This document shows, one piece after another, positions 3,093 to 14,787 of a stretch of 64,000 bases of DNA (the stretch's first letter is position 1; each line of letters begins with the position of its first letter). The position numbers and the translations under genes are program-made. The stretch is from Inhella inkyongensis (GTDB lineage Bacteria; Pseudomonadota; Gammaproteobacteria; Burkholderiales; Burkholderiaceae_C): positions 496,001-560,000 of the forward strand of contig NZ_CP040709.1 in the NCBI RefSeq assembly GCF_005952805.1, in the 5' to 3' direction. The notes under the pieces are model-generated. The model made no database searches and was not told where the DNA came from. It was given only the letters and a program-made list of their open reading frames with translations.

Positions 3093-5042
3093 ATGACCCG
3101 CTTGTTCCTGCCGCTGATGCGCTTGATGCGCCGGCTGCCGATGGCCCAGAAGTTCGCCATCATCTGTGTGGCCTTCGCGATTCCGGTGCTCTATCTCTTG
3201 ATAACGCTGGTGAACGACCGGCGTGAGGCGGCCGAGTTCTCGCGCAAAGAGTTGCGGGGCATCACTGAGCTCAGGCAGGCCGATAAATTGCTGGAACAGG
3301 CCCTGAACCTTCGGGGCTCCAGCATGGGGCAAGCCAGCGGTCGCGAGGGGGCCGAAGGGATGCGGCAACAGGCGGCGGCCGGCTTCCAGTCTCAATTGGC
3401 ATCCTGGGATCAGGCCCTGAGCGCAGCAGGTGATCCCCTGGGCTTGCGGGCCGAGTTGGGCAAATTGCGCGAACCCTCGACGGCGCTGGCGGGCCTCAAG
3501 ACCGATGCCCTGGAGCCGGTGATGGAGGCCGGCAATACTTTGGTGGAGGGGGTGCTCGACCTCTATGAAACCATTGCGAGCAATAGCAATCTGGCGCTCG
3601 ATCCGGATGCCGATAGCTACTACTTGATGGTCGCAGCCGTCGATGACTTGCCGCGCCTGATCAATGCGGTCAGTCGTGCCCGCGGCGTGGGGGCGGCGAT
3701 TGCGAGGATCGGGGATGTGGCCCAGGTGCCCCCGGACGTCATGATGGCCATGCACAACGCCGATGCCATGACCGATGAGTATCTGGGGCGTGCGCGTGAC
3801 GATTTGGTCCGGGTGGAGCGGGCCAACTCAGACGTCGTGGCCGGGTTGAAGCGGGAGGTCTTTGAGGCCTTGGAAACTCAATTCGTCTCTCGCATCGATG
3901 CCGAGTTTCCATTTGCGGGCCCCATCACGGCCAAATCGGAAGAGTGGTTCGCCACCGGCACGCGTTTTCAGCATGAGTTGGAGGCGTTGGAGAGTGACGT
4001 CGCCGAGCGCCTGACCACGTTGATCCAGGCGCGCGTGCAGCGCCTGGAGCGGCAAATGTGGACCGCTGTGGTGGTGGCGGTGCTGTCGGTGGGCTTGGGC
4101 ATGGTGCTGCTGGCGTCCTACTACATGGCCGCTCAATCCACTTACCAGGCCTTGGGGCGACGCATCGCCCGGCTGGGCGGTGGCGACCTGAGCAGCAGCG
4201 AAAGCCTTGCGGGCCGCGATGAGTTGGTGCTGGCGGGCAATGAGTTGCGCGAGGCCATCGACAACCTGGTGATGCTGGTGCTGCAGGTGCGATCCAGTGC
4301 CGAAGAAATCGAGGGCAGTGCGGCCGAGATTGCCGCCGGCAACCACGACCTGGCGAATCGTGGCGCACAGATGGCGGCCGTGGTGGAGCAAACCAGCGCG
4401 AGTACGGCGACCCTGGAAGAGACCGTGGGCCACAACCTGGGCAGCGCTGGAGAAGCCAACAGCCTGGTGCAGAACGCGGCGGCTGTGGCGGGCAAGGGCG
4501 GCGCCATCGTCGAACAGGCGGTGCGCTCGATGGAAGAGATCACCGCCAGCAGCAAGAAGATCGGCGACATCATTCAGGTCATCGACAGCATCGCCTTCCA
4601 GACCAATATCTTGGCCTTGAATGCGGCGGTGGAGGCGGCTCGGGCGGGCGAGCAGGGGCGGGGATTTGCCGTGGTGGCCGGCGAGGTACGCGCCCTGGCC
4701 GGGCGCAGCGCGGCGGCGGCGCGCGAGATCAAGACCCTGATTCAAAGTTCGATCGAGACCGTGAGTCAGGGCGGTCAATACGTGAACCAGGCCGGCGCGA
4801 CCATGCACGAGATGGTGCAGGCGATTGAGCGGGTCACCGGCATCATGAGTGACATCACGCGGGAATCCAACTCGCAAGCGGAGCAGATTCGTCAGCTGGC
4901 AGCGGCGATTCGCGAGGTGGACAGCGCGACGCAACAGAACGCCGCCTTGGTCGAGGAGACGGCGGCCTCGGCCGCGCAGTTGTCGGACCGGGCGCGCTCG
5001 TTGAGTGAGTCGGCCAAGCAGTTCAAGACGGATGCCGACTGA
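3093..5042 (+). CDS. Methyl-accepting chemotaxis protein
   Basis: A 649-residue transmembrane chemoreceptor. One membrane helix lies at about residues 20-40 and a second at about 314-340. The roughly 270-residue periplasmic stretch between them is helical and should be the sensor. A HAMP-like region follows ([12 protein letters not shown]), then the long helical signalling domain. The hairpin tip that contacts CheA/CheW is clearly conserved ([25 protein letters not shown]). No CheR-binding pentapeptide is seen at the C terminus (ends QFKTDAD). A TAGGAG ribosome site precedes the ATG. The ligand is unknown, and no che genes are nearby. Confidence 0.93.
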
Positions 5043-5836: not shown

Positions 5837-5861
5837 GATGGACGCGCATGCTGCCGGCCAA

Positions 5862-5881
5862 CTGTCACGGCTTGATGACAG
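5862..5881. promoter_or_regulatory. Inverted repeat in the divergent PilJ-N-like/ubiA promoter gap
   Basis: CTGTCA and TGACAG form a perfect 6-bp inverted repeat with an 8-bp spacer in the 65-bp gap between two divergent genes, close to the ubiA start. It has the size of a dimeric regulator site. I do not recognise the regulator and it could be chance. Confidence 0.3.
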
Positions 5882-5901
5882 GGCTTTCCCATAATGGCGA
5901 A

Positions 5902-6801
5902 ATGTCGCTTTCCTTCGCGCGCTGGCGCCTCTATCTCGATTTGATCCGCTGGGATCGTCCCGCCGGCTGGCTGCTGCTGCTGTGGCCCACGCTCTCCGCC
6001 TTGTGGCTGGCGGCGGATGGGTTTCCGGGTTGGCATCTGTTGTTCGTGTTCATCGGCGGCACCATCTTGATGCGCTCGGCCGGTTGCTGCATCAACGACG
6101 TGGCCGACCGGGAGTTTGACCGCCATGTCGCGCGCACCGCAAAGCGGCCCGTCACCACCGGCGCCATTCCGGTCAAGGAGGCCTTGCAGCTGGGGGCGCT
6201 GCTGGCGGTTCTGGCCTTCCTTCTGGTGCTGAGCACCAATCCGCCCACCATCTGGCTCTCGCTGCCGGCGTTGGCCGTGGCCCTGCTCTATCCCTATGCC
6301 AAGCGGGTCTTGGCGATGCCGCAGGCGGTGTTGGGCGTGGCCTTTAGCTTTGGCATTCCGATGGCCTTTTCCGCTGTGCTGGGTGCGGATGATTGGCGCC
6401 TGCAGGCCATCCCCGATGCCATCCCCCTGGCGGCCTGGGGTCTGATGGCTGCCAATCTGTTCTGGGTACTGGCTTACGACACCGAGTACGCCATGGTCGA
6501 CCGCGAGGATGATCTCAAGATCGGCATCAAGACCAGTGCCATCACCCTGGGGGCCTGGGATGTGCGAGGTATCGCGCTGTTCTATCTGGTCTTTCTGGGC
6601 GGCTGGGCGGGGCTCGCCTTGAGCTTCTTTGGCATGGGCTGGGGATTCGTGGCGGGCTGGGGGCTGGCCCTGGCCCAGGTGCTGTGGCACTTGCGCTTGA
6701 TTGCGCCCCGTGAACGGGCCGGGTGCTTCCAAGCCTTTCGGCTCAATCACTGGGTGGGCGCAGCGCTGTTCGCCGGTACTGCGCTCGATCTGATGCTTTA
6801 A
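5902..6801 (+). CDS. ubiA: 4-hydroxybenzoate octaprenyltransferase
   Basis: Integral membrane prenyltransferase that joins a polyprenyl chain to 4-hydroxybenzoate, the first committed membrane step of ubiquinone synthesis. Both Asp-rich, Mg-diphosphate-binding motifs are present ([10 protein letters not shown] and [11 protein letters not shown]), and hydrophobic helices fill the rest, about eight to nine in all. Length (299 aa) is normal. The ATG at 5902 ([20 protein letters not shown]) is preferred over the upstream in-frame ATG because family homology begins there. It converges on pssA with a 1-bp gap. 4-Hydroxybenzoate is also a typical aryl polyene starter, so the pigment cluster at the right edge may compete for the same precursor (inference). 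Confidence 0.95.
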
Positions 6802-6802
6802 G

Positions 6803-7420
6803 TCAGAGCTTGGGAATCCGGATCCGGCTGATCATCAACGAGCCGGACAGCAGATAGAGCAGGGCTTGTGGGTGCAGGCGGTAGCCACCCAGTTCCACTA
6901 CCCCGCCCCAGAGCGTCGGGCCGACCGCACCTTGCCAAATGCCGGCAGCCAACAGGGCCACCAGGAGGACGGAGGTCGGAATGGGCGTGCCTTCAAAATA
7001 GGCAACTTTGTCAGTGCCCGCGCTGAGTTGCTCTGCCGTGACGTTGTAACGCGCCAGGCGAGAGACGCCACAGGTGACGAAGAACACCAGGATGATGCGG
7101 TCCCACAAGCCTTGCATTCCGGCTGCGTAGGCGATGGCGGCGGGCACCACGCCGAAGGAGATCACGTCGGCCAGCGAATCCAGCTCCCTGCCCATGGCGC
7201 TGCTGGCCTGGCGCCAGCGGGCGATGCGGCCGTCCAGCATGTCGAAGATCAGCGCCAACGGCACCAAGCCACAGGCCAGCAGCAAGTGCCAGCTCTCCTG
7301 AGTTTGTAGGTAACTCATGGTGGCAAACAGGGCGGCAACGCCACAAATGGCATTGCCCAGCGTGAACCAATCGGCGAGATGAAACTCGCGGATCATCGAA
7401 AAAGGCTTGGGGGCGGACAT
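6803..7420 (-). CDS. pssA: CDP-diacylglycerol--serine O-phosphatidyltransferase
   Basis: Inner-membrane phospholipid enzyme of the CDP-alcohol phosphatidyltransferase family; it makes phosphatidylserine, the precursor of phosphatidylethanolamine. The full signature DGxxAR(x8)GxxxDxxxD is visible as DGRIARW...MGRELDSLAD. Several hydrophobic helices follow and the length is about 205 residues, normal for the PssA type II branch. The start at 7420 (MSAPKPFSMIREF) is chosen over an upstream in-frame codon because it gives the usual short N terminus. Phosphatidylglycerophosphate synthase shares the motif, but the serine enzyme fits the sequence better. Confidence 0.88.
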   Translation of the reverse strand: MSAPKPFSMIREFHLADWFTLGNAICGVAALFATMSYLQTQESWHLLLACGLVPLALIFDMLDGRIARWRQASSAMGRELDSLADVISFGVVPAAIAYAAGMQGLWDRIILVFFVTCGVSRLARYNVTAEQLSAGTDKVAYFEGTPIPTSVLLVALLAAGIWQGAVGPTLWGGVVELGGYRLHPQALLYLLSGSLMISRIRIPKL

Positions 7421-7564
7421 AGGCCGCAAGGATAGGGCAGGCCCCACCCGTTTGAGGGGCCGGACCGGTCTGGACCCCCACCTACAATCTGTTTCGCTTG
7501 CGCGCCCGGGGGTCGCCCGATTCCTGGTGTGGTGCGCCGGTCAGGCCAGAACAAAGGAAGGCAT

Positions 7565-8251
7565 ATGGACTCGAACCCGCAAACCCAGAAGGCACAGCCC
7601 GCTGGCGCACCGGCGAATGCGCCGCGGCGTCGTTTGTTCGGTGGTGTGGCCGGTGGGGTGTTGGTGGCCGTGCCGGCCAAGACGGCCCTGGGTGCCGTCT
7701 GCAAGAGCCCTTCGGCCATGATCAGCGGCAACACCAGCCCGCGCACGGGCGATGGCAGTACCTGTTCGGGTGGCTTGTCGCCAGGATTCTGGATGACCCC
7801 ACAACACTCCCCGCACTGGACGGTGGCTGGCGCCAAGTTCCCGACTTTCAAGTCCGTGCCGGTGCTCTGTGGGGCCAAGCCGCCTGATCTGTCGGAAACC
7901 GACATCCTGACCCCGGGCACGTTGTTGACCGAGGCCGGCTTCGTCGGTGCGCCCGCTGGCATCGGCTTGTGGCAGGCCCTGGCCTATGAGACGAAGTACA
8001 CGCAGTTGCTGCGCCATCTGTCAGCAGCCTGGCTGAATGCCGGTTACTTTGATTCGCAGAGCCAGAACTACCCGCTCAGCCGGCCACAGATCGTCGAGAT
8101 GTGGATGGCGGTGAAGAACGGTGGCACCTACTGCCCCTCGGCGTTGTTGAGCTGCGGCAACAACGGTTGGACCGCCTCGGATGTGATTGCCTACATCTCC
8201 GGGATGTACGACGTTCAGGCAGCGGTGCCGAATCTCTGTAAGGGCACTTGA
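7565..8251 (+). CDS. Exported six-cysteine protein of the HprK-rel-A cassette
   Basis: A 228-residue protein of unknown function. The N terminus looks like a twin-arginine or Sec signal: RRR at 21-23, then a hydrophobic run GGVAGGVLVAVPA ending near ALGA (residue 44). The mature part has exactly six cysteines (46, 67, 102, 190, 197, 225), suggesting disulfides outside the cytoplasm. It also has the motif CSGGLSPGFW (67-76), close to the SPGxWKNxPxxW motif of many secreted bacterial proteins. The start at 7565 follows an AAGGAAGG ribosome site. It is immediately followed by PqqD-like, kinase and nucleotidyltransferase genes, which makes it the likely substrate or product of that cassette (inference). 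Confidence 0.7.
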   Translation: MDSNPQTQKAQPAGAPANAPRRRLFGGVAGGVLVAVPAKTALGAVCKSPSAMISGNTSPRTGDGSTCSGGLSPGFWMTPQHSPHWTVAGAKFPTFKSVPVLCGAKPPDLSETDILTPGTLLTEAGFVGAPAGIGLWQALAYETKYTQLLRHLSAAWLNAGYFDSQSQNYPLSRPQIVEMWMAVKNGGTYCPSALLSCGNNGWTASDVIAYISGMYDVQAAVPNLCKGT

Positions 8252-8548
8252 TTGGCGGCTTTGCCGTGCCTCGGCCTGGCGCCGGGGCGGCGCTTGATTT
8301 GGGCGCCGGACTGGAACTGCTCGGACGGGCGTATCGCCTTTGATGCGACCTCGGGCGATTATTGGATCCTGTCGCCGCTGGCGGCGGCCCTCGTGAGGGC
8401 CCTTGCCGAACAGGCTTGTACGCCGGATGAGACCTGGATGGCCGCACGGGTCGCACAGGTTCAGGCGGATACCGGTGAAGTCCCTGAAGAACTGCCGGAA
8501 CAGGTGTTGGAGACCTTGATGCGGGAGCATCTGTTGGCCGCCGCATGA
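8252..8548 (+). CDS. PqqD-like peptide chaperone, HPr-rel-A system type
   Basis: A 98-residue protein resembling the PqqD/RRE fold, which binds leader peptides of modified peptides. The typical pattern of a strand followed by DxxSGxxWxLxxxAxxL is seen as FDATSGDYWILSPLAAALVRAL, then a Glu-rich helical tail ending EHLLAAA. The start is a TTG directly after the stop of the upstream gene; no other start gives a full N-terminal strand. It overlaps the kinase gene by 4 nt. PqqD-family members paired with HprK-related kinase A form a recognised but uncharacterised pairing; the role given is by family analogy. Confidence 0.72.
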   Translation: MAALPCLGLAPGRRLIWAPDWNCSDGRIAFDATSGDYWILSPLAAALVRALAEQACTPDETWMAARVAQVQADTGEVPEELPEQVLETLMREHLLAAA

Positions 8549-9408
8549 CCGACCTGCAGATTGACATCGCGCCCTTTCGGGTGCGGCTGCGCTCGTCCTA
8601 CCCCGGCGTGGCCGCGCATGTGTCACGCTTCTATGCCGATTACCCACAAAGCCCAGGCTCGGCCGGCGGATTTGTGGACTTCGATATCGAGATCCTGCCG
8701 GGCAAAGGCTTGCGGCGCTGGTGGGCGCCCCAGGCGCGTTTTCTGCTTGATGGGGTCGAGCCCTTTCATCCGCTACCGGGTGAGCAGGCCGGGCCACTGT
8801 TCGAGTGGGGGTTGAATTGGTCGGTGGCGCATCGCGCGCTGGGCTTTCTTGTGATGCATGCCGCTGTGCTGGCGCGCAACGGCCGCGCGCTGATGCTGCC
8901 TGGCTTTCCCGGCGCGGGCAAAAGTACCCTGTGTGCGTCGCTGACCTTCATGCGCGGCTGGCAGTTGTTCTCGGATGAGCTGGCCATCTACGACCCCGCA
9001 CGCGCCCAGTTGCTGCCACACCCGCGCCCCATCAGCTTGAAGAACGAGTCGATTGCGCGGGTCCAGGCCATGCCGGGTGCGCAGTTGGGGCCGGTGTTCC
9101 GAGCCACCCGCAAAGGCGATATCGCCCATGCGGCTTGTCCCCAGGCTTCGGTTCAGGCCGCTCACCGTCCCGCCGAATTGGCTTGGTTGGTGTTTCCTCG
9201 CTTTGAGGCGGGGGCTGAGTCCTCGGTCGAGGAAATCAGCCGGGTCGAGGCCTTTGTGTTGCTCTCGGAGCAGAACTTCAATCAGGAACGCATGGGGGAG
9301 GCGGGCTTTACCGCGGCCTGTGCGCTACTGGATGGGGCGCGTTGCTTCCAGATTCGCTATGGCAGCACCGAGGCCGGTCTGGCCCTGATCGACGAGCTGT
9401 GCCGCTGA
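8545..9408 (+). CDS. HprK-related kinase A
   Basis: A 287-residue P-loop protein related to the C-terminal domain of HPr serine kinase. The Walker A loop is GFPGAGKST at residues 120-128, preceded by the conserved His (VMHAAVLARNGRALMLPG). SDELAIYD follows at the usual position of the metal/phosphate Asp. The N-terminal 100 residues do not resemble the HprK regulatory domain, and no PTS genes are nearby, so phosphorylation of HPr is unlikely. A kinase acting on the product of the cassette is the working inference. Translation is coupled on both sides (ATGA overlap upstream, TGATG overlap downstream). Confidence 0.82.
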   Translation: MTDLQIDIAPFRVRLRSSYPGVAAHVSRFYADYPQSPGSAGGFVDFDIEILPGKGLRRWWAPQARFLLDGVEPFHPLPGEQAGPLFEWGLNWSVAHRALGFLVMHAAVLARNGRALMLPGFPGAGKSTLCASLTFMRGWQLFSDELAIYDPARAQLLPHPRPISLKNESIARVQAMPGAQLGPVFRATRKGDIAHAACPQASVQAAHRPAELAWLVFPRFEAGAESSVEEISRVEAFVLLSEQNFNQERMGEAGFTAACALLDGARCFQIRYGSTEAGLALIDELCR

Positions 9409-10490
9409 TGAGCGCCCTCCCGCTGTCCTTCTTGCTGCAGCATCTGGCCCAGCCCGAGCGGGTGCGTGCCCTGGATGAGACCGGCTGGGGCCGGCTGATT
9501 GCGCAGGCGCGCGCGGCCAATCTTCTGGGCACGTTGGCGCAGCGCATGGGCGATGCCGGTATCCACGCCGCACCGGCGCCTGAGCGCCACTTGGAGGGGG
9601 CGCGTCAGCTGGCGGCGCGGCAGCGCTTGTCGGTGGCCTGGGAAGCGCAGCTGTTGCAGCGCACGCTCGGTGGGCTCGGGGTGCCGGTGTTGCTGCTCAA
9701 GGGGGCGGCCTATGTGCTGGGCAACTACCCGGCCAGTGAAGCCCGCATGTTTGGCGACATCGATATCTTGGTGTCTCGCACTGCCCTGGGCCAGGTGGAA
9801 AGCACCCTGATGCTGGCCGGTTGGGTCAGCGCCAAACAGGAAGCCTATGACCAGCACTACTACCGGGAGTGGATGCACGAGCTGCCGCCGATGGTGCAGG
9901 TGCGCCGCGGTACGGTGCTGGATGTCCATCACAGCCTATTGCCGCTCACCGGTCGCTTGCACCCGCGCCCCGAGGCGCTGATTGCCCGCGCTCGTGCGTT
10001 GCCGGATTTGCCGGGTTTGAGCGTGCCGGCGCCCGAGGATCTGGTGATTCATTCCCTGGTGCATCTGGCCCACGAAGGCGAGCAGCACCACGGGCTGCGA
10101 GATCTTTGTGATGTGGACCGCCTGTTGCGCCACTTCGCACGGACCGAGCCCGATTTTTGGATTCGCTTGCTGCAGGCCTGTGCCGAACATGGCGTGGCCG
10201 AGCCGGTGCTTTTGGGGCTCCAACTCTTGCAGCGCAGTTGGCAAACGCCGCTGCCGCAGGACTTTGTTTCGGCCTTGAGCGAGCGGGCGGGTGGCCCGGC
10301 CCCAGAGCGATTGCTGCGTCGCTTCGAGCGCGCCATGCACGCGCTGCAAAGCGCAGGGGCCCTGGACCGGTGGGCTCAGTGGCGGCTCTATGTGCGGGCG
10401 CACGCGCTGCGCATGCCGCCGGGCATGCTGTTGCGCCACCTGACGATCAAGGCTTGGATGGGTTTGCGGCGCGAGAGCGACTCCGACTGA
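9408..10490 (+). CDS. Nucleotidyltransferase family protein (PF14907-like)
   Basis: A 360-residue protein with the Pol-beta-like nucleotidyltransferase signature of the NTP_transf_5 group: LLLKGAAYVLGNYP, then MFGDIDILVSR, whose two Asp residues should bind metal. Such enzymes recur beside HprK-like kinases and PqqD-like proteins, including in some lasso-peptide clusters. The likely reaction is transfer of a nucleotide or similar group to a protein, peptide or small molecule; the acceptor is unknown. The start at 9408 overlaps the kinase stop by 1 nt, which rules out the upstream in-frame start. Its stop codon directly abuts the stop of the convergent protease gene. Confidence 0.78.
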   Translation: MSALPLSFLLQHLAQPERVRALDETGWGRLIAQARAANLLGTLAQRMGDAGIHAAPAPERHLEGARQLAARQRLSVAWEAQLLQRTLGGLGVPVLLLKGAAYVLGNYPASEARMFGDIDILVSRTALGQVESTLMLAGWVSAKQEAYDQHYYREWMHELPPMVQVRRGTVLDVHHSLLPLTGRLHPRPEALIARARALPDLPGLSVPAPEDLVIHSLVHLAHEGEQHHGLRDLCDVDRLLRHFARTEPDFWIRLLQACAEHGVAEPVLLGLQLLQRSWQTPLPQDFVSALSERAGGPAPERLLRRFERAMHALQSAGALDRWAQWRLYVRAHALRMPPGMLLRHLTIKAWMGLRRESDSD

Positions 10491-11354
10491 TCAGGGCTGT
10501 GCCGCCGCAAAGGTGTCGCAGGCTTCGATGCGGCCTTGTTGCATGCCCACGCTGAACCAGCGCTGGCGCTGTGCCGCGCTGCCATGCGTAAAGCTCTCCG
10601 GCACCACCTGCCCATTGGCGGCCTTTTGCAGCACGTCGTCGCCGATGCGGCTGGCTGCATTCAGGGCGGCCTCCACATCACTGCGCTCCAACCACTGTTT
10701 GCCCTTTTGGGAATGGTGGGTCCACACACCGGCCAGGCAATCGGCCTGCAACTCCAAGCGCACGCTGAGCTGATTGCCCGCTACCTCGGACAGGCGGCTG
10801 CGCGCCTGTTGCACCTTGGCGCTGATGCCCAGCTGTTGCTGCAGGTGGTGGGCCACCTCATGGGCCACGACATAGGCTGCCGCGAATTCGCCCGGTGCAC
10901 CCAATTGCTTCGACAGGGTGTCAAAGAAGTCTAGATCCAGGTAGATGTGCTGGTCGCCTGGGCAGTAGAAGGGCCCCATGGCTGAATCGCCCGTGCCGCA
11001 GGCGGTCTCGGTCTGGCCGCGGAACAGTCGCAGGCGCGGCGGCGTGTAAGGCTGCTGGCGCTGCTTGAAAAGGGTTTGCCAGACGTCTTCGGTGTCGGCC
11101 AACACCACCCTGACGAAGCGGGTTGCGGGGTCGCGTGCCGGGTCGTCACCTGCGCTCCCTGGGTCCACTTGAACGGGAGCGCCACTGCCATCGTCCAGCG
11201 CGCTGAGCACCGTCATGGGATTGATACCGAACAGCCAGGCTGCGACCAAGGCCAACACGATGCCGCCCAGTCCCAGGCCACGTCGGCCCGCGCCGCTGGG
11301 CCTGCCGCGCAGGTCCTCGACCCGGTCGCTCTCTCGATGCCCTTCCCACTTCAT
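10491..11354 (-). CDS. ypfJ: Neutral zinc metallopeptidase, YpfJ family
   Basis: A 287-residue membrane-anchored protease of the zinc-metallopeptidase group that includes E. coli YpfJ. A single membrane helix lies at about residues 28-44 (GLGGIVLALVAAWLFGI), followed by an extracytoplasmic catalytic domain with HEVAH at 165-169. Motifs shared across the family include YCPGDQHIYLDLDFF, the polar stretch ADCLAGVW and the C-terminal GSAAQRQRWFSVG. The start at 11354 (MKWEGHRESDRVEDLRG) matches the strongly conserved family N terminus; the earlier in-frame ATG does not. The substrate is unknown for the family. Confidence 0.9.
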   Translation of the reverse strand: MKWEGHRESDRVEDLRGRPSGAGRRGLGLGGIVLALVAAWLFGINPMTVLSALDDGSGAPVQVDPGSAGDDPARDPATRFVRVVLADTEDVWQTLFKQRQQPYTPPRLRLFRGQTETACGTGDSAMGPFYCPGDQHIYLDLDFFDTLSKQLGAPGEFAAAYVVAHEVAHHLQQQLGISAKVQQARSRLSEVAGNQLSVRLELQADCLAGVWTHHSQKGKQWLERSDVEAALNAASRIGDDVLQKAANGQVVPESFTHGSAAQRQRWFSVGMQQGRIEACDTFAAAQP

Positions 11355-11482
11355 GCCGCTCTCCGGATCGTCGCGCAAAACGGCAGTCTATGGCCCTCCG
11401 CATGCATCCGGTCACCCGCCGCTGGTGGGCGGGCGAAGGGGTTCGCAAACTGCCTCAATTCCACTGCCCTCAGGAGTTCTCC

Positions 11483-12298
11483 ATGCGTCGCTCATCCCTG
11501 CCTGTTCGTGCCCTTGCGCTTTGCTGTGCGCTGACCGTGTCCGGTCTGGCCATGGCCGAGGAACAGGAATGGGTGTTGCGCATCAAGAATGAGGCCAAGC
11601 ATCTCTCCATCACGCTGGGGGGCACCACGCTCTATGGTTCAGGCGGTCAGCGCGCCAAGGGCTCGGGCCAGCTGGTAGACAGGGCGCGCAGTGTGGCGCC
11701 CTTCACCCGGGTGCGCGTTGATGGCCCGCTGGATGTGCATCTGCACGCGGCCGCTGCCGAGGGCCTGCGGGTGCAGGCTGATGACAACATCGAGCCCCTG
11801 ATCCAAACCTCGGTGGAGGGCGATACCTTGGTGATTGGCGTGCGCGCCGGCGCCAGCTTCAGCAGCCGCCAGTCATTGCGGGTGGCGGTGGATTTCAAGC
11901 GGCTCCAAGGCCTGATGGTGCGCGGTTCTGGCGATGTGCGGCTGGATCAGTACAAGGGCGATCGCCTGGAACTCGACATGAGCGGTTCGGGCGATGTGGC
12001 GGTGGGCCTGGTGGAGGCCCGCGAGCTGTCAGCGCGCCTGAGCGGCTCCGGAGACTTGCGCGTCGCAGGCGCCGTCGAGCGCCAGGACTTCCATCTCAGC
12101 GGCAGCGGCGATGTGGACGCGGCCTCTCTAAGTGGTCAGCAGGTGCGGGCCAAGCTGTCGGGCAGTGGCGATCTGCGCCTGGGCGTGGCCCAGGAACTGG
12201 ATGCCGACCTGTCTGGCAGCGGTGACCTGGCGTATGCCGGCCGCCCCAAGGTGAAGAGCCAGGTCAGCGGCTCGGGCGAGTTGATCGCCCGCCGCTGA
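11483..12298 (+). CDS. Exported GIN-domain (DUF2807) beta-helix protein
   Basis: A 271-residue protein with a Sec signal peptide (residues 1-25, cleavage near AMA-EE). A right-handed beta-helix-like domain is built of repeats around SGSGDV, at least seven copies between about 145 and 270. This is the head GIN/DUF2807 family found on cell surfaces or in the periplasm of many bacteria; its role is unknown. The start at 11483 follows a good CAGGAG ribosome site 7 nt away and begins the signal peptide, so the longer in-frame start at 11390 is rejected. It converges on the yidB-like gene with a 9-bp gap. Confidence 0.85.
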   Translation: MRRSSLPVRALALCCALTVSGLAMAEEQEWVLRIKNEAKHLSITLGGTTLYGSGGQRAKGSGQLVDRARSVAPFTRVRVDGPLDVHLHAAAAEGLRVQADDNIEPLIQTSVEGDTLVIGVRAGASFSSRQSLRVAVDFKRLQGLMVRGSGDVRLDQYKGDRLELDMSGSGDVAVGLVEARELSARLSGSGDLRVAGAVERQDFHLSGSGDVDAASLSGQQVRAKLSGSGDLRLGVAQELDADLSGSGDLAYAGRPKVKSQVSGSGELIARR

Positions 12299-12307
12299 GT
12301 CGCAGCT

Positions 12308-12709
12308 TCAGCGCTGCAACAGGCCGCTCAGCTGCCCCAGCAAATCGTCGATGCCGCCGGTGGGCAGCTGGCCTTGCGGGGTCAGCCCATCCACCACCTG
12401 CGGCAGCTGCTGGGCCAGCTGCTGGCTGAGTTGAGCCGGGTTGAGGCCAAATTGCTGAGCCAGCTGGCCAATCAAATCGCCGCCCAGACCTTGTTCGATC
12501 TGCTGCGCACTGATGGGCAGATTGGCGCCGGTGCCGACCCAACTCTGAACGATCTCGCCCAAGCCGCCTCGGCTGAGCTGTTCCACCAAGCCGGCCAGGC
12601 CTTGGCCGCCTCCGACCTGACGCAGCAGGCTGCCGATCAGGTCCGCGCCGCCGCCCTGGCCTTGGAGTTGTCCGCTGACCGCGCCGACGATTGAATCCAG
12701 CAATCCCAT
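12308..12709 (-). CDS. yidB: YidB-like DUF937 protein
   Basis: A 133-residue low-complexity protein rich in Gly, Leu and Gln, starting MGLLDSIVGAVSGQ. It has the pattern of the YidB/DUF937 family (two helical hairpins with IGSLLRQVGGGQGLAGLVEQ and WVGTGANLPISAQQIEQGLG). The molecular function is unknown for the family. It starts at 12709, 43 bp after the end of yifB on the same strand, so the two may be co-transcribed. A longer in-frame start upstream would run into yifB and has no homology support. Confidence 0.82.
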   Translation of the reverse strand: MGLLDSIVGAVSGQLQGQGGGADLIGSLLRQVGGGQGLAGLVEQLSRGGLGEIVQSWVGTGANLPISAQQIEQGLGGDLIGQLAQQFGLNPAQLSQQLAQQLPQVVDGLTPQGQLPTGGIDDLLGQLSGLLQR

Positions 12710-12752
12710 GGCCGTGCTCCAAGTTCGTATGAGGACGGCGATTGTGCGCGGC

Positions 12753-14255
12753 TCAGCGCGGCAGGGCGCGGTGCATCTGAATGGCCTGGGCGATGTCGCT
12801 GGCCTCGATCTGGGGGCGCCGGCCCAGATCTGCCAGCGTGCGCGCCACCCGCTGCACGCGGTGCAGCGCGCGGCCCGACCACGCCAGGCGCTGGGCGGCC
12901 TGCTGGAGCAGTTGCGCCGCGGCAGCTTGAAGCGGTGCAAAGCGCTCTAACTGACCGACCGGGAGTTGCGCATTCAGGCAGCCCTGTCGCTCCAGCGCCA
13001 ATGCCTGTGCCTCGGCCACGCGCGCGGCCACTTCGGCACTGCCCTCGCCGTCGGGCGCAGCCGCCAGCTCCGTCGGATGCAGAAGGGGAACCTCCACCAG
13101 CAAGTCCAGGCGGTCGAGCAGGGGGCCTGAAAGTCGCCCCTGGTAGCGCGAGACTTGCTCCGGACTGCAGCGGCAGGCCTTGAGCGGATTGCCCAAATGG
13201 CCACAGGGGCAGGGGTTCATGGCAGCCACCAGTTGGAAGCGAGCAGGGAACTCGCTGCTGCGGGCCGCGCGGGCGATGTGAATCCGGCCGGTCTCCAGTG
13301 GCTCGCGCAGGGCCTCCAACGCGGCACGGGGGAACTCGGGCAGTTCGTCCAGAAACAGAACACCGTGGTGCGCCAGTGAAATTTCGCCCGGCCGCGGCGG
13401 CGAGGCCCCGCCTACCAGGGCCACGGCCGAGGCACTGTGGTGCGGACAGCGGAACGGACGCTGGGCAAAGGTCTCGGCGGCAAAGCTGCCCACCAGAGAC
13501 TGCAAGGCGGCGACTTCGAGCGCGGCCTCCAGCGGCAGGGGTGGCAGCAGACCTGGCAGGCGCTGCGCCAGCATGGATTTGCCGGTGCCTGGTGGACCGA
13601 CCAACAGCAGATGGTGGGCTCCTGCTGCGGCCACCTCCAGTGCGCGCTTGGGGCCGGCCTGGCCGCGCACATCGCGCAGGTCCAAGGGCAGCTCCAGCGG
13701 CGCCGGCCGTGCCTGGCGCGGCAAGGTAGGCAGACTGCCGTCCTGCAAGGCGGCGACCAGGCCGAGCAGATCCTGGGCCACATGAAGTCGCACGCCCTCC
13801 ACCCAGGCGGCCTCTTGGGCGCTGGCGGCTGGCAGAACCAGGCCACGCGACGCGCCTTCGCGGCGCAGCGCCAAAGCCTGCGCCAGCGCTCCGCGCACCG
13901 GGCGCAACTCGCCGCTCAATGAGAGTTCGCCGGCCCACTCCAATTGATCCAGGCCGCTGGCCGGCAGCTGCCCGCTGGCCACCAACAGGCCCAGCGCGAT
14001 GGGCAGGTCAAAGCGCGCCCCTTCCTTGGGCAGGTCGGCCGGCGCCAGATTCACGGTGATGCGGCGGTCATGTGGGAACTGCAGTCCGCTGCTGGTGAGC
14101 GCTGCGCGGACTCGTTCGCGCGCTTCCTTGACCTCGGTGTCCGCCAGGCCCACCAGGGTGAAGCTGGGCAGGCCGGGGGCCAGATGAACCTCAACGGTCA
14201 CCGGCAGGGCCGCGAGGCCGCAGAGGGCACGACTGTGAAGCAGGGCCAGGCTCAT
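12753..14255 (-). CDS. yifB: YifB/ComM family AAA+ ATPase
   Basis: A 500-residue ATPase of the Mg-chelatase-like group. Members called ComM are branch-migration helicases that help integrate transforming DNA. Domain order: N-terminal Lon-like/ChlI domain (GLADTEVKEARERVRAAL, NLAPADLPKEG), AAA+ core with Walker A LLVGPPGTGKSML and Walker B GVLFLDELPEF, and C-terminal Mg-chelatase domain with the arginine-rich RAARSSEFPARF region. A CPCG...CRC cysteine cluster (CPCGHLGNPLKACRCS) matches the family's four-Cys motif. The start at 14255 (MSLALLHSRALCG) gives the family N terminus. It is divergent from the glnK promoter region. It hints at natural competence, but no other com gene lies in the window. 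Confidence 0.92.
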   Translation of the reverse strand: MSLALLHSRALCGLAALPVTVEVHLAPGLPSFTLVGLADTEVKEARERVRAALTSSGLQFPHDRRITVNLAPADLPKEGARFDLPIALGLLVASGQLPASGLDQLEWAGELSLSGELRPVRGALAQALALRREGASRGLVLPAASAQEAAWVEGVRLHVAQDLLGLVAALQDGSLPTLPRQARPAPLELPLDLRDVRGQAGPKRALEVAAAGAHHLLLVGPPGTGKSMLAQRLPGLLPPLPLEAALEVAALQSLVGSFAAETFAQRPFRCPHHSASAVALVGGASPPRPGEISLAHHGVLFLDELPEFPRAALEALREPLETGRIHIARAARSSEFPARFQLVAAMNPCPCGHLGNPLKACRCSPEQVSRYQGRLSGPLLDRLDLLVEVPLLHPTELAAAPDGEGSAEVAARVAEAQALALERQGCLNAQLPVGQLERFAPLQAAAAQLLQQAAQRLAWSGRALHRVQRVARTLADLGRRPQIEASDIAQAIQMHRALPR

Positions 14256-14333
14256 GGTGGGTCTCCCTGCACCGATTCTGATCCCGAGCCGGCGCCCCGT
14301 AACGGTGCATGGGGTCGAAAGTGAGCCCAAAGC

Positions 14334-14348
14334 GCACCGGGACGGTGC
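14334..14348 (+). promoter_or_regulatory. NtrC binding site upstream of glnK
   Basis: GCACC-N5-GGTGC matches the core of the NtrC operator. It is centred about 50 nt upstream of the sigma-54 -12 element, a normal enhancer distance. Single half-sites (TGCACC at 14268 and GGTGCA at 14304) lie further upstream. This predicts activation of glnK-amtB under nitrogen limitation. Confidence 0.72.
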
Positions 14349-14378
14349 GGCAAGGCGATCTTTGTGCCGGCTTGGCGC

Positions 14379-14394
14379 TGGCACGGAAGCTGCA
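14379..14394 (+). promoter_or_regulatory. Sigma-54 (-24/-12) promoter of glnK-amtB
   Basis: TGGCACGGAAGCTGCA fits the sigma-54 consensus TGGCAC-N5-TTGCA with one mismatch. It sits 54 nt before the glnK ATG and just downstream of an NtrC site, the standard arrangement for this operon. Confidence 0.82.
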
Positions 14395-14406
14395 AAACCG
14401 GGTTGA

Positions 14407-14787
<381 letters not shown>

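Follow-up and report, generated by a model that had tools for sequence, protein, structure and literature searches.

The window, the whole 64,000-nucleotide stretch of Inhella inkyongensis DNA analysed here (contig NZ_CP040709.1, positions 496,001 to 560,000 of the forward strand), carries at 7565-10490 a cassette of four genes, A-B-C-D, all on the plus strand. They specify a putative exported protein (A), a PqqD-like protein of the RiPP (ribosomally synthesised and post-translationally modified peptide) recognition element (RRE) type (B), an HprK-related kinase (C) and a nucleotidyltransferase (D), and A is proposed as the substrate of the other three. A previous, sequence-only reading had described four tightly coupled genes at this place, and a check of the open reading frames (ORFs) found all four there, overlapping or abutting. 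The A gene is preceded by a good ribosome site, as judged by eye, its stop codon is immediately followed by the TTG start codon of B, B overlaps C by the sequence ATGA, and C overlaps D by TGATG.

Gene A (7565-8251, plus strand) specifies a protein of 228 residues with the features of a twin-arginine translocation (Tat) substrate. Its leader, residues 1-43 (7565-7693; RRRLF...AKTALG), has three arginines at 21-23 and, by eye, a hydrophobic stretch running to TALG, and it ends in a signal-peptidase-I-like A-L-G site. Six cysteines are present, at positions 46, 67, 102, 190, 197 and 225, so that the twin-arginine-like signal and the six cysteines claimed earlier are both found in the sequence. 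The genome of the host encodes TatC, and A is probably exported by this pathway. Residues 50-58 (SAMISGNTS, 7712-7738), close to the presumed mature N-terminus, form a candidate modification site. No Pfam or NCBIfam model matched A at E <= 1, no PADLOC model at E <= 0.01, and no chain of a solved structure was matched by the A profile at E <= 1. Six diverse relatives of A likewise had no Pfam family at E <= 0.1, nor did two cargos of other kinds at E <= 0.001.

The remaining three genes, all on the plus strand, are recognisable by family. B (8252-8548, 98 residues) covers 70 of the 74 positions of the NCBIfam model TIGR04353 (PqqD_rel_X) and adjoins the kinase gene, but scores 27.3 bits against a cut-off of 35. 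The HprK-type kinase with an intact P-loop that had been predicted was confirmed in C (8545-9408, 287 residues), which belongs to TIGR04352 (HprK_rel_A; 349.9 bits, cut-off 200) and keeps both the P-loop and the catalytic His/Asp; the residues H105, G125, K126, T128, D144, E145, K166 and N246 were found in 100% of 126 aligned rows. D (9408-10490, 360 residues) was correctly assigned to PF14907 (190.4 bits, Pfam cut-off 31.2, scanned from an earlier in-frame start) and retains the KG, DxD and third Asp elements, with K98, G99, R113, D117, D119, E131 and D172 present in 100% of 112 rows. Both alignments count the window sequence twice.

Relatives of the cassette were collected from named genomes with C as query, the best 80 of 93 loci being kept and the window locus bringing the set to 81. 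A profile of A was iterated over this set, and in 78 of the 81 loci, the window's own included, it gave exactly one A-like ORF, located 5' of the kinase and reading in the same direction; the misses were L020 and two loci, L073 and L078, whose contig starts too near. The profile was then frozen and applied to held-out loci (L084-L098 and L105-L133, some cut by contig ends), and it recovered A beside the kinase in 40 of the 44 with a kinase over the cut-off, but in none of six loci with HprK-like genes below the family cut-off and in neither of two exosortase loci. In L121 (737-1240), one of the 40, the A-like gene runs opposite to the kinase. Applied to another 20 stretches, of which two repeated earlier loci, the frozen profile found A in ten, and in seven of the other ten a protein of a third kind with a twin-arginine leader was read upstream of the kinase. 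The 18 new stretches and the earlier loci together cover all but 11 of the genomes that have a kinase over the cut-off in one genome survey.

D was present in 111 of 125 loci (single-sequence search), a B-like ORF in 100 of 125 (by a lenient profile applied to ORFs chosen beforehand for their position), and all four genes in 88; these counts are lower bounds, because contig ends and short flanks have cut some of the loci. The distribution is patchy: of 60 genomes surveyed for a kinase over the cut-off, 16 had one, five of the genus's six among them. The co-occurrence of the gene set is far beyond chance: neither the set nor its secreted partner is an artefact, both are conserved, and the grouping is seen in many proteobacteria. 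The sequence-only reading had asked whether the six-cysteine protein is constant next to the kinase, and had named its lack of conservation there as a refutation. An A-like partner is nearly constant, and that refutation did not come about, but the six cysteines are not kept across lineages, whereas the leader is.

Within A, constant and changing parts can be told apart. In the near subfamily (64 sequences, that of the window included), the leader residues R21, R22, A41, L42 and G43 were invariant, as were four of the six cysteines and S50, S54, N56 and S58, and conserved residues were spread over the whole protein. The six cysteines mark this close subfamily and not the partner proteins generally. 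Between lineages it is the leader that persists, with its twin arginine and a PV(I/V)LTLxS-like stretch (consensus RR...PVxLTLxS..A-x-A/G), and a permissive [AV]x[AG] signal-peptidase-like pattern was found in 95 of 104 placed leaders. The cargos behind it are of at least three kinds, most of them read as about 100-250 residues long: class I has a motif of the S...SGNxS type at the mature N-terminus, often with SPGFW/TPGYW, class II has a C-terminal SCW(T/S)S motif, and the third kind carries CEIPVP. Leaders of classes I and II, the two main ones, were 36% identical, compared with 23% for their mature parts, the same value as for shuffled mature parts; across all 81 representatives, leader identity was 39% as against 26% for shuffled leaders.

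Some cargos depart from the usual form. Those of L026 and L056 are very short: past the signal they have some 30-40 residues, with much Gly/Arg or Thr/Arg/Trp, and they keep SGNxS. Cassettes at L166-L171, L173 and L174 have the secreted cargo of the third kind, which is unrelated to the others (RRALMLGAVGASAIVSIRPALAQ ... CEIPVP-like). A search across the cargos for one acceptor serine common to all found none. The kinase matches of a sphingomonad-like group, an identity that is guessed, had been considered as lasso peptide kinases, and this was dropped when reading upstream gave the third kind of cargo in seven of the ten loci in which the A profile had found nothing.

A profile built from the leaders alone had A as its sole good match in the genome of the window (E 3.7e-7, the next match 0.086), A itself being part of the profile. 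Twelve leaders were named for a leave-out test, of which five remained after dereplication and were run; A was ranked first of 19,075 ORFs in all five, although the window's own A reached only E 0.051. A control set of 12 Tat-like ORFs was set aside, several of them being probably spurious. Among 40 genomes, matches at E <= 1e-8 were found in 11 of the 20 with a kinase, always at the cassette, and in none of the 20 without; nine of those 11 leaders belonged to the training set of the profile.

The kinase was found to be co-inherited with A according to cargo class. In a FastTree reconstruction of 116 kinase sequences, one change suffices to separate class II from all other cargos, compared with about 28 when the labels were shuffled, and class II spans genomes of the same class as the window and of other classes. 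In two loci, L096 (295-2685) and L127 (1438-3561), the kinase and the PF14907 transferase form one open frame, the former locus belonging to the window's own genus.

From these data, the reading that we consider moderately probable is that the cassette makes one phosphate-modified exported protein, A, by way of leader recognition. B would bind or present the leader of A, so that the signal-peptide region doubles as a recognition sequence, and C would phosphorylate a serine of A, in this lineage most plausibly S50, S54 or S58, just past the presumed signal-peptidase site. D would then extend the phosphate by adding a nucleotide or a sugar. Export of A would follow, probably through Tat, with cleavage behind A-L-G; such a cleavage would place the modified segment near the mature N-terminus. 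Every step of binding, modification and export in this scheme is inferred, from sequence and from analogy. The earlier proposal that the cassette modifies the secreted protein has gained from the near constancy of the partner, the co-inheritance of the kinase by cargo class and an enzyme set matching that of the linear polyphosphorylated peptides (LPPs) of Bacillota, for which phosphorylation of a leader-guided precursor has been shown (PMC13381572), with the modification itself staying at the level of a prediction.

Several observations weigh against leader-guided modification of A. The score of B lies under the NCBIfam cut-off, and the aromatic residue of the leader motif of lasso peptides and LPPs was not seen in the A leaders. 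The split in the kinase tree could be produced by the co-inheritance of neighbouring genes alone. No single serine can be the acceptor in all cargos, because the proteins of the 104 placed leaders divide into 42 with an SGNxS-type motif, 32 with an SCWxS-type motif, one with both and 31 with neither. Of 118 A-like ORFs, 14 had no leader that the rule used could place, and no A was recognised in eight kinase loci (L020, L098, L123, L124, L130, L161, L172 and L176), where the cargo may have diverged, lie elsewhere, or have been cut off or lost. At E <= 0.01 the leader profile missed the cassette A in eight of 20 kinase genomes (G001, G002, G016, G031, G032, G078, G372 and G392, the first two being congeners of the window); G078 and four others had no match at all at this threshold, and three had matches only away from the cassette. 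Weak matches (E 3e-5 to 1e-2) also occurred in five of 20 kinase-free genomes, and of the two read by eye (L149 and L152), one looked antisense to a pseudopilin-like gene and the other like an ordinary Tat protein. Given good scores at cassettes and yet eight misses in 20, the leader is recognisable in most lineages but not in all.

The cassette of the window is flanked by three genes that recur as neighbours but whose role is uncertain. These are a PssA-like CDP-alcohol phosphatidyltransferase (6803-7447, minus strand; PF01066, TIGR00473 at 115 bits), for which the genome has a second, distant match elsewhere, a YpfJ-type neutral zinc metallopeptidase (10491-11378, minus strand; PF04228, NF050010 at 358 bits), and a DUF2807 (head GIN domain) protein (11390-12298, plus strand; PF10988). 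A PssA-like gene adjoins the cassettes of L189 and L192-L195, in either relative orientation, the metallopeptidase gene lies beside those of L191-L194, and a DUF2807 gene is close to those of L189 and L191-L194. The block PssA-D-C-B-A-metallopeptidase-DUF2807 is repeated in three other genera (L192-L194), with no ubiA or comM in the fetched flanks. Among six genomes of the genus, G000 and G002 alone have a close copy of PssA, and the metallopeptidase is confined to G000 and G004, each beside the cassette.

Four congeners (L188-L191) have a cassette at the same ubiA-comM site (5848-14549 in the window), but inverted relative to that of the window. Comparable flanking genes at this site are 59-86% identical between the window and the congeners, while the window kinase is 37-40% identical to those of the congeners as against 56-63% to the kinases of AAP65, an Azonexaceae metagenome-assembled genome and Aromatoleum, and nothing in the congeners was matched by A of the window at E <= 1e-5. 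The most likely explanation, judging from these comparisons, is that the native cassette of the genus has been exchanged in place for a foreign, inverted one; two ancestral cassettes with differential loss are also conceivable.

Of the other explanations for the cassette, one is that A is a strict RiPP precursor, in which the leader guides modification and later proteolysis frees a small modified peptide as the product. The very short cargos of L026 and L056 would suit this, as would the zinc metallopeptidase beside the window cassette and the trypsin-like protease gene (PF13365) found in 27 of the 81 fetched loci, but most cargos are far longer and near-subfamily conservation runs along the whole protein, while in 54 of the 81 loci, some of them cut short, no such protease was found and where present its place varies. 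A strict precursor is unlikely. A second explanation, which we hold to be equally improbable, is that A is a partner rather than a substrate, the kinase and transferase acting on an envelope polysaccharide, a lipid or another small molecule, with A downstream. Markers of XrtA/PEP-CTERM exopolysaccharide systems (PrsT, PrsK or the XrtA-system glycosyltransferase, members being accepted by single-sequence search at E <= 1e-15 only) do occur in the flanks retrieved for 31 of 81 loci, a figure that is 22 of 53 when loci of at least 14 kb are counted, and a PssA-like enzyme adjoins several cassettes. In 398 genomes of the phylum the kinase exceeded its cut-off in 61 and XrtA in 35, with both in 25 against about five expected if kinship is disregarded. 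By hand count, all 13 kinase genomes of the window's class, which we take to be the Gammaproteobacteria in GTDB's sense, carry XrtA, which occurs in 16 genomes of that class; the XrtA of the window genome lies about 2 Mb from the cassette. Outside the class, however, 36 of 48 kinase genomes had no XrtA over the cut-off (hand count), which rules out XrtA as an obligatory partner, an RRE-type protein and a leader more constant than its cargo point to a peptide substrate, and the kinase tree divides by cargo class.

Two further alternatives are very improbable. That C is the regulatory HPr kinase of the phosphotransferase system might be supposed because its profile matches the P-loop core of HPrK (1jb1, E 4.4e-4), but C exceeds the TIGR04352 cut-off, has no match to TIGR00679 at E <= 1 and is grouped with A, B and D. 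The genome has a separate gene, at another place, for a canonical HprK/P (TIGR00679, 316.6 bits, cut-off 240), and HPr, which the sequence-only reading had named as the alternative target, is therefore an unlikely substrate of C. A toxin-antitoxin or anti-phage role of the cassette, in which D would be the toxin and resemble AbiEii, has equally little in its favour: the AbiEii match of D is weak (17.5 bits, cut-off 22.5) as against 190 bits to PF14907, A has an export signal, and none of B, C or D, any more than A, matched a PADLOC model at E <= 0.01.

Modification of A by the cassette, if true, would show that leader-guided phosphate modification, as in the LPPs of Bacillota and lasso peptides, reaches to entire proteins secreted by Gram-negative bacteria, and would tie it to exopolysaccharide and exosortase loci. 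A possible substrate is thereby put forward for a kinase family annotated by NCBI, and since a leader, candidate serines and natural fusions are at hand, the question is directly testable. A bolder reading, which is unlikely, is that the signal peptide is also the RiPP leader of a widespread proteobacterial system whose protein-sized cargos diversify and are exchanged. In it, C might form phosphoserine on A, D might convert this into a phosphate activated by a nucleotide, such as CMP-phosphoserine, and the neighbouring PssA-like enzyme might put a lipid or a sugar alcohol in the place of the nucleotide, so that A would be anchored by a phosphodiester. Attachment of A to the envelope or exopolysaccharide in this way would be a new kind of protein anchoring. 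A 2020 paper (PMC7157517) reportedly deals with lipid anchoring of archaeosortase substrates.

Among known systems, C and B are already named in NCBIfam as parts of the HPr-rel-A system (TIGR04352 and TIGR04353), a comparison made by model names and scores alone, in which C is over and B under the cut-off, and A and D have no NCBIfam match at E <= 1. C matches ScmC of the SynChlorMet system (TIGR04249) weakly, at 21.1 bits, far under the cut-off of 125. In the literature searched, which held few subscription papers, no account of a substrate for the HPr-rel-A kinase was found, nor any paper using the names 'HprK-related kinase' or 'HPr-rel-A', nor one joining an exosortase to HPr kinase or PqqD. 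Papers joining PqqD, HPr kinase and a nucleotidyltransferase were those on lasso peptides, RRE-Finder together with HPr led only to PMC13381572, and twin-arginine together with RiPP recognition element led only to a hot-spring paper, judged by its title.

Lasso peptides of the paeninodin/pseudomycoidin type (PadeK, ThcoK, PsmK, PsmN) likewise involve a serine-phosphorylating HprK-like kinase and a transferase acting on the phosphate. According to PMC9266682 and PMC8498205, PsmK and then PsmN add a phosphate and then a hexose to the lasso peptide, and nucleotide transfer as the first step of PsmN is left open. A scan of window proteins near the cassette gave neither a lasso macrolactam cyclase nor a B2 leader peptidase.

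Also close are the LPPs of Bacillota, which combine an RRE, an HprK-like kinase and an NTP transferase, the last two in common with C and D, and whose precursors have a constant N-terminus and a highly variable C-terminus (PMC13381572, from which the following is taken as far as its text was available). LppK phosphorylates Ser3 of the core in an RRE-guided precursor, deletion of lppN gave no visible change, a signal-peptidase-type cleavage occurs immediately before the modified serine, and the clusters are often beside capsule or polysaccharide loci. LPPs also carry the motif YxxPxVLxHQxIxFETxxS, an SpI-like peptidase (SpI, signal peptidase I) and an MsbA-like exporter, and are described as restricted to Bacillota; that part of the text has no mention of Proteobacteria, Pseudomonadota, Tat, twin-arginine, exosortase or Gram-negative. 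The motif is not in the window's A, a P-x-hydrophobic element occurs in 73 of 104 leaders though not, by eye, in the window's, and neither peptidase nor exporter was found among the window proteins scanned (1.3-14.8 kb, less a chemoreceptor at 3093-5042). The earlier statement that no characterised pathway has this composition no longer fully holds, because LPPs share the RRE, kinase and NTP transferase. What sets the system of the window apart from the LPPs, so far as these are described there, is its Tat-like leader and its cargos of up to about 250 residues, and by analogy the cassette most likely decorates A before export, in a manner akin to the phosphorylated peptides of Gram-positive bacteria.

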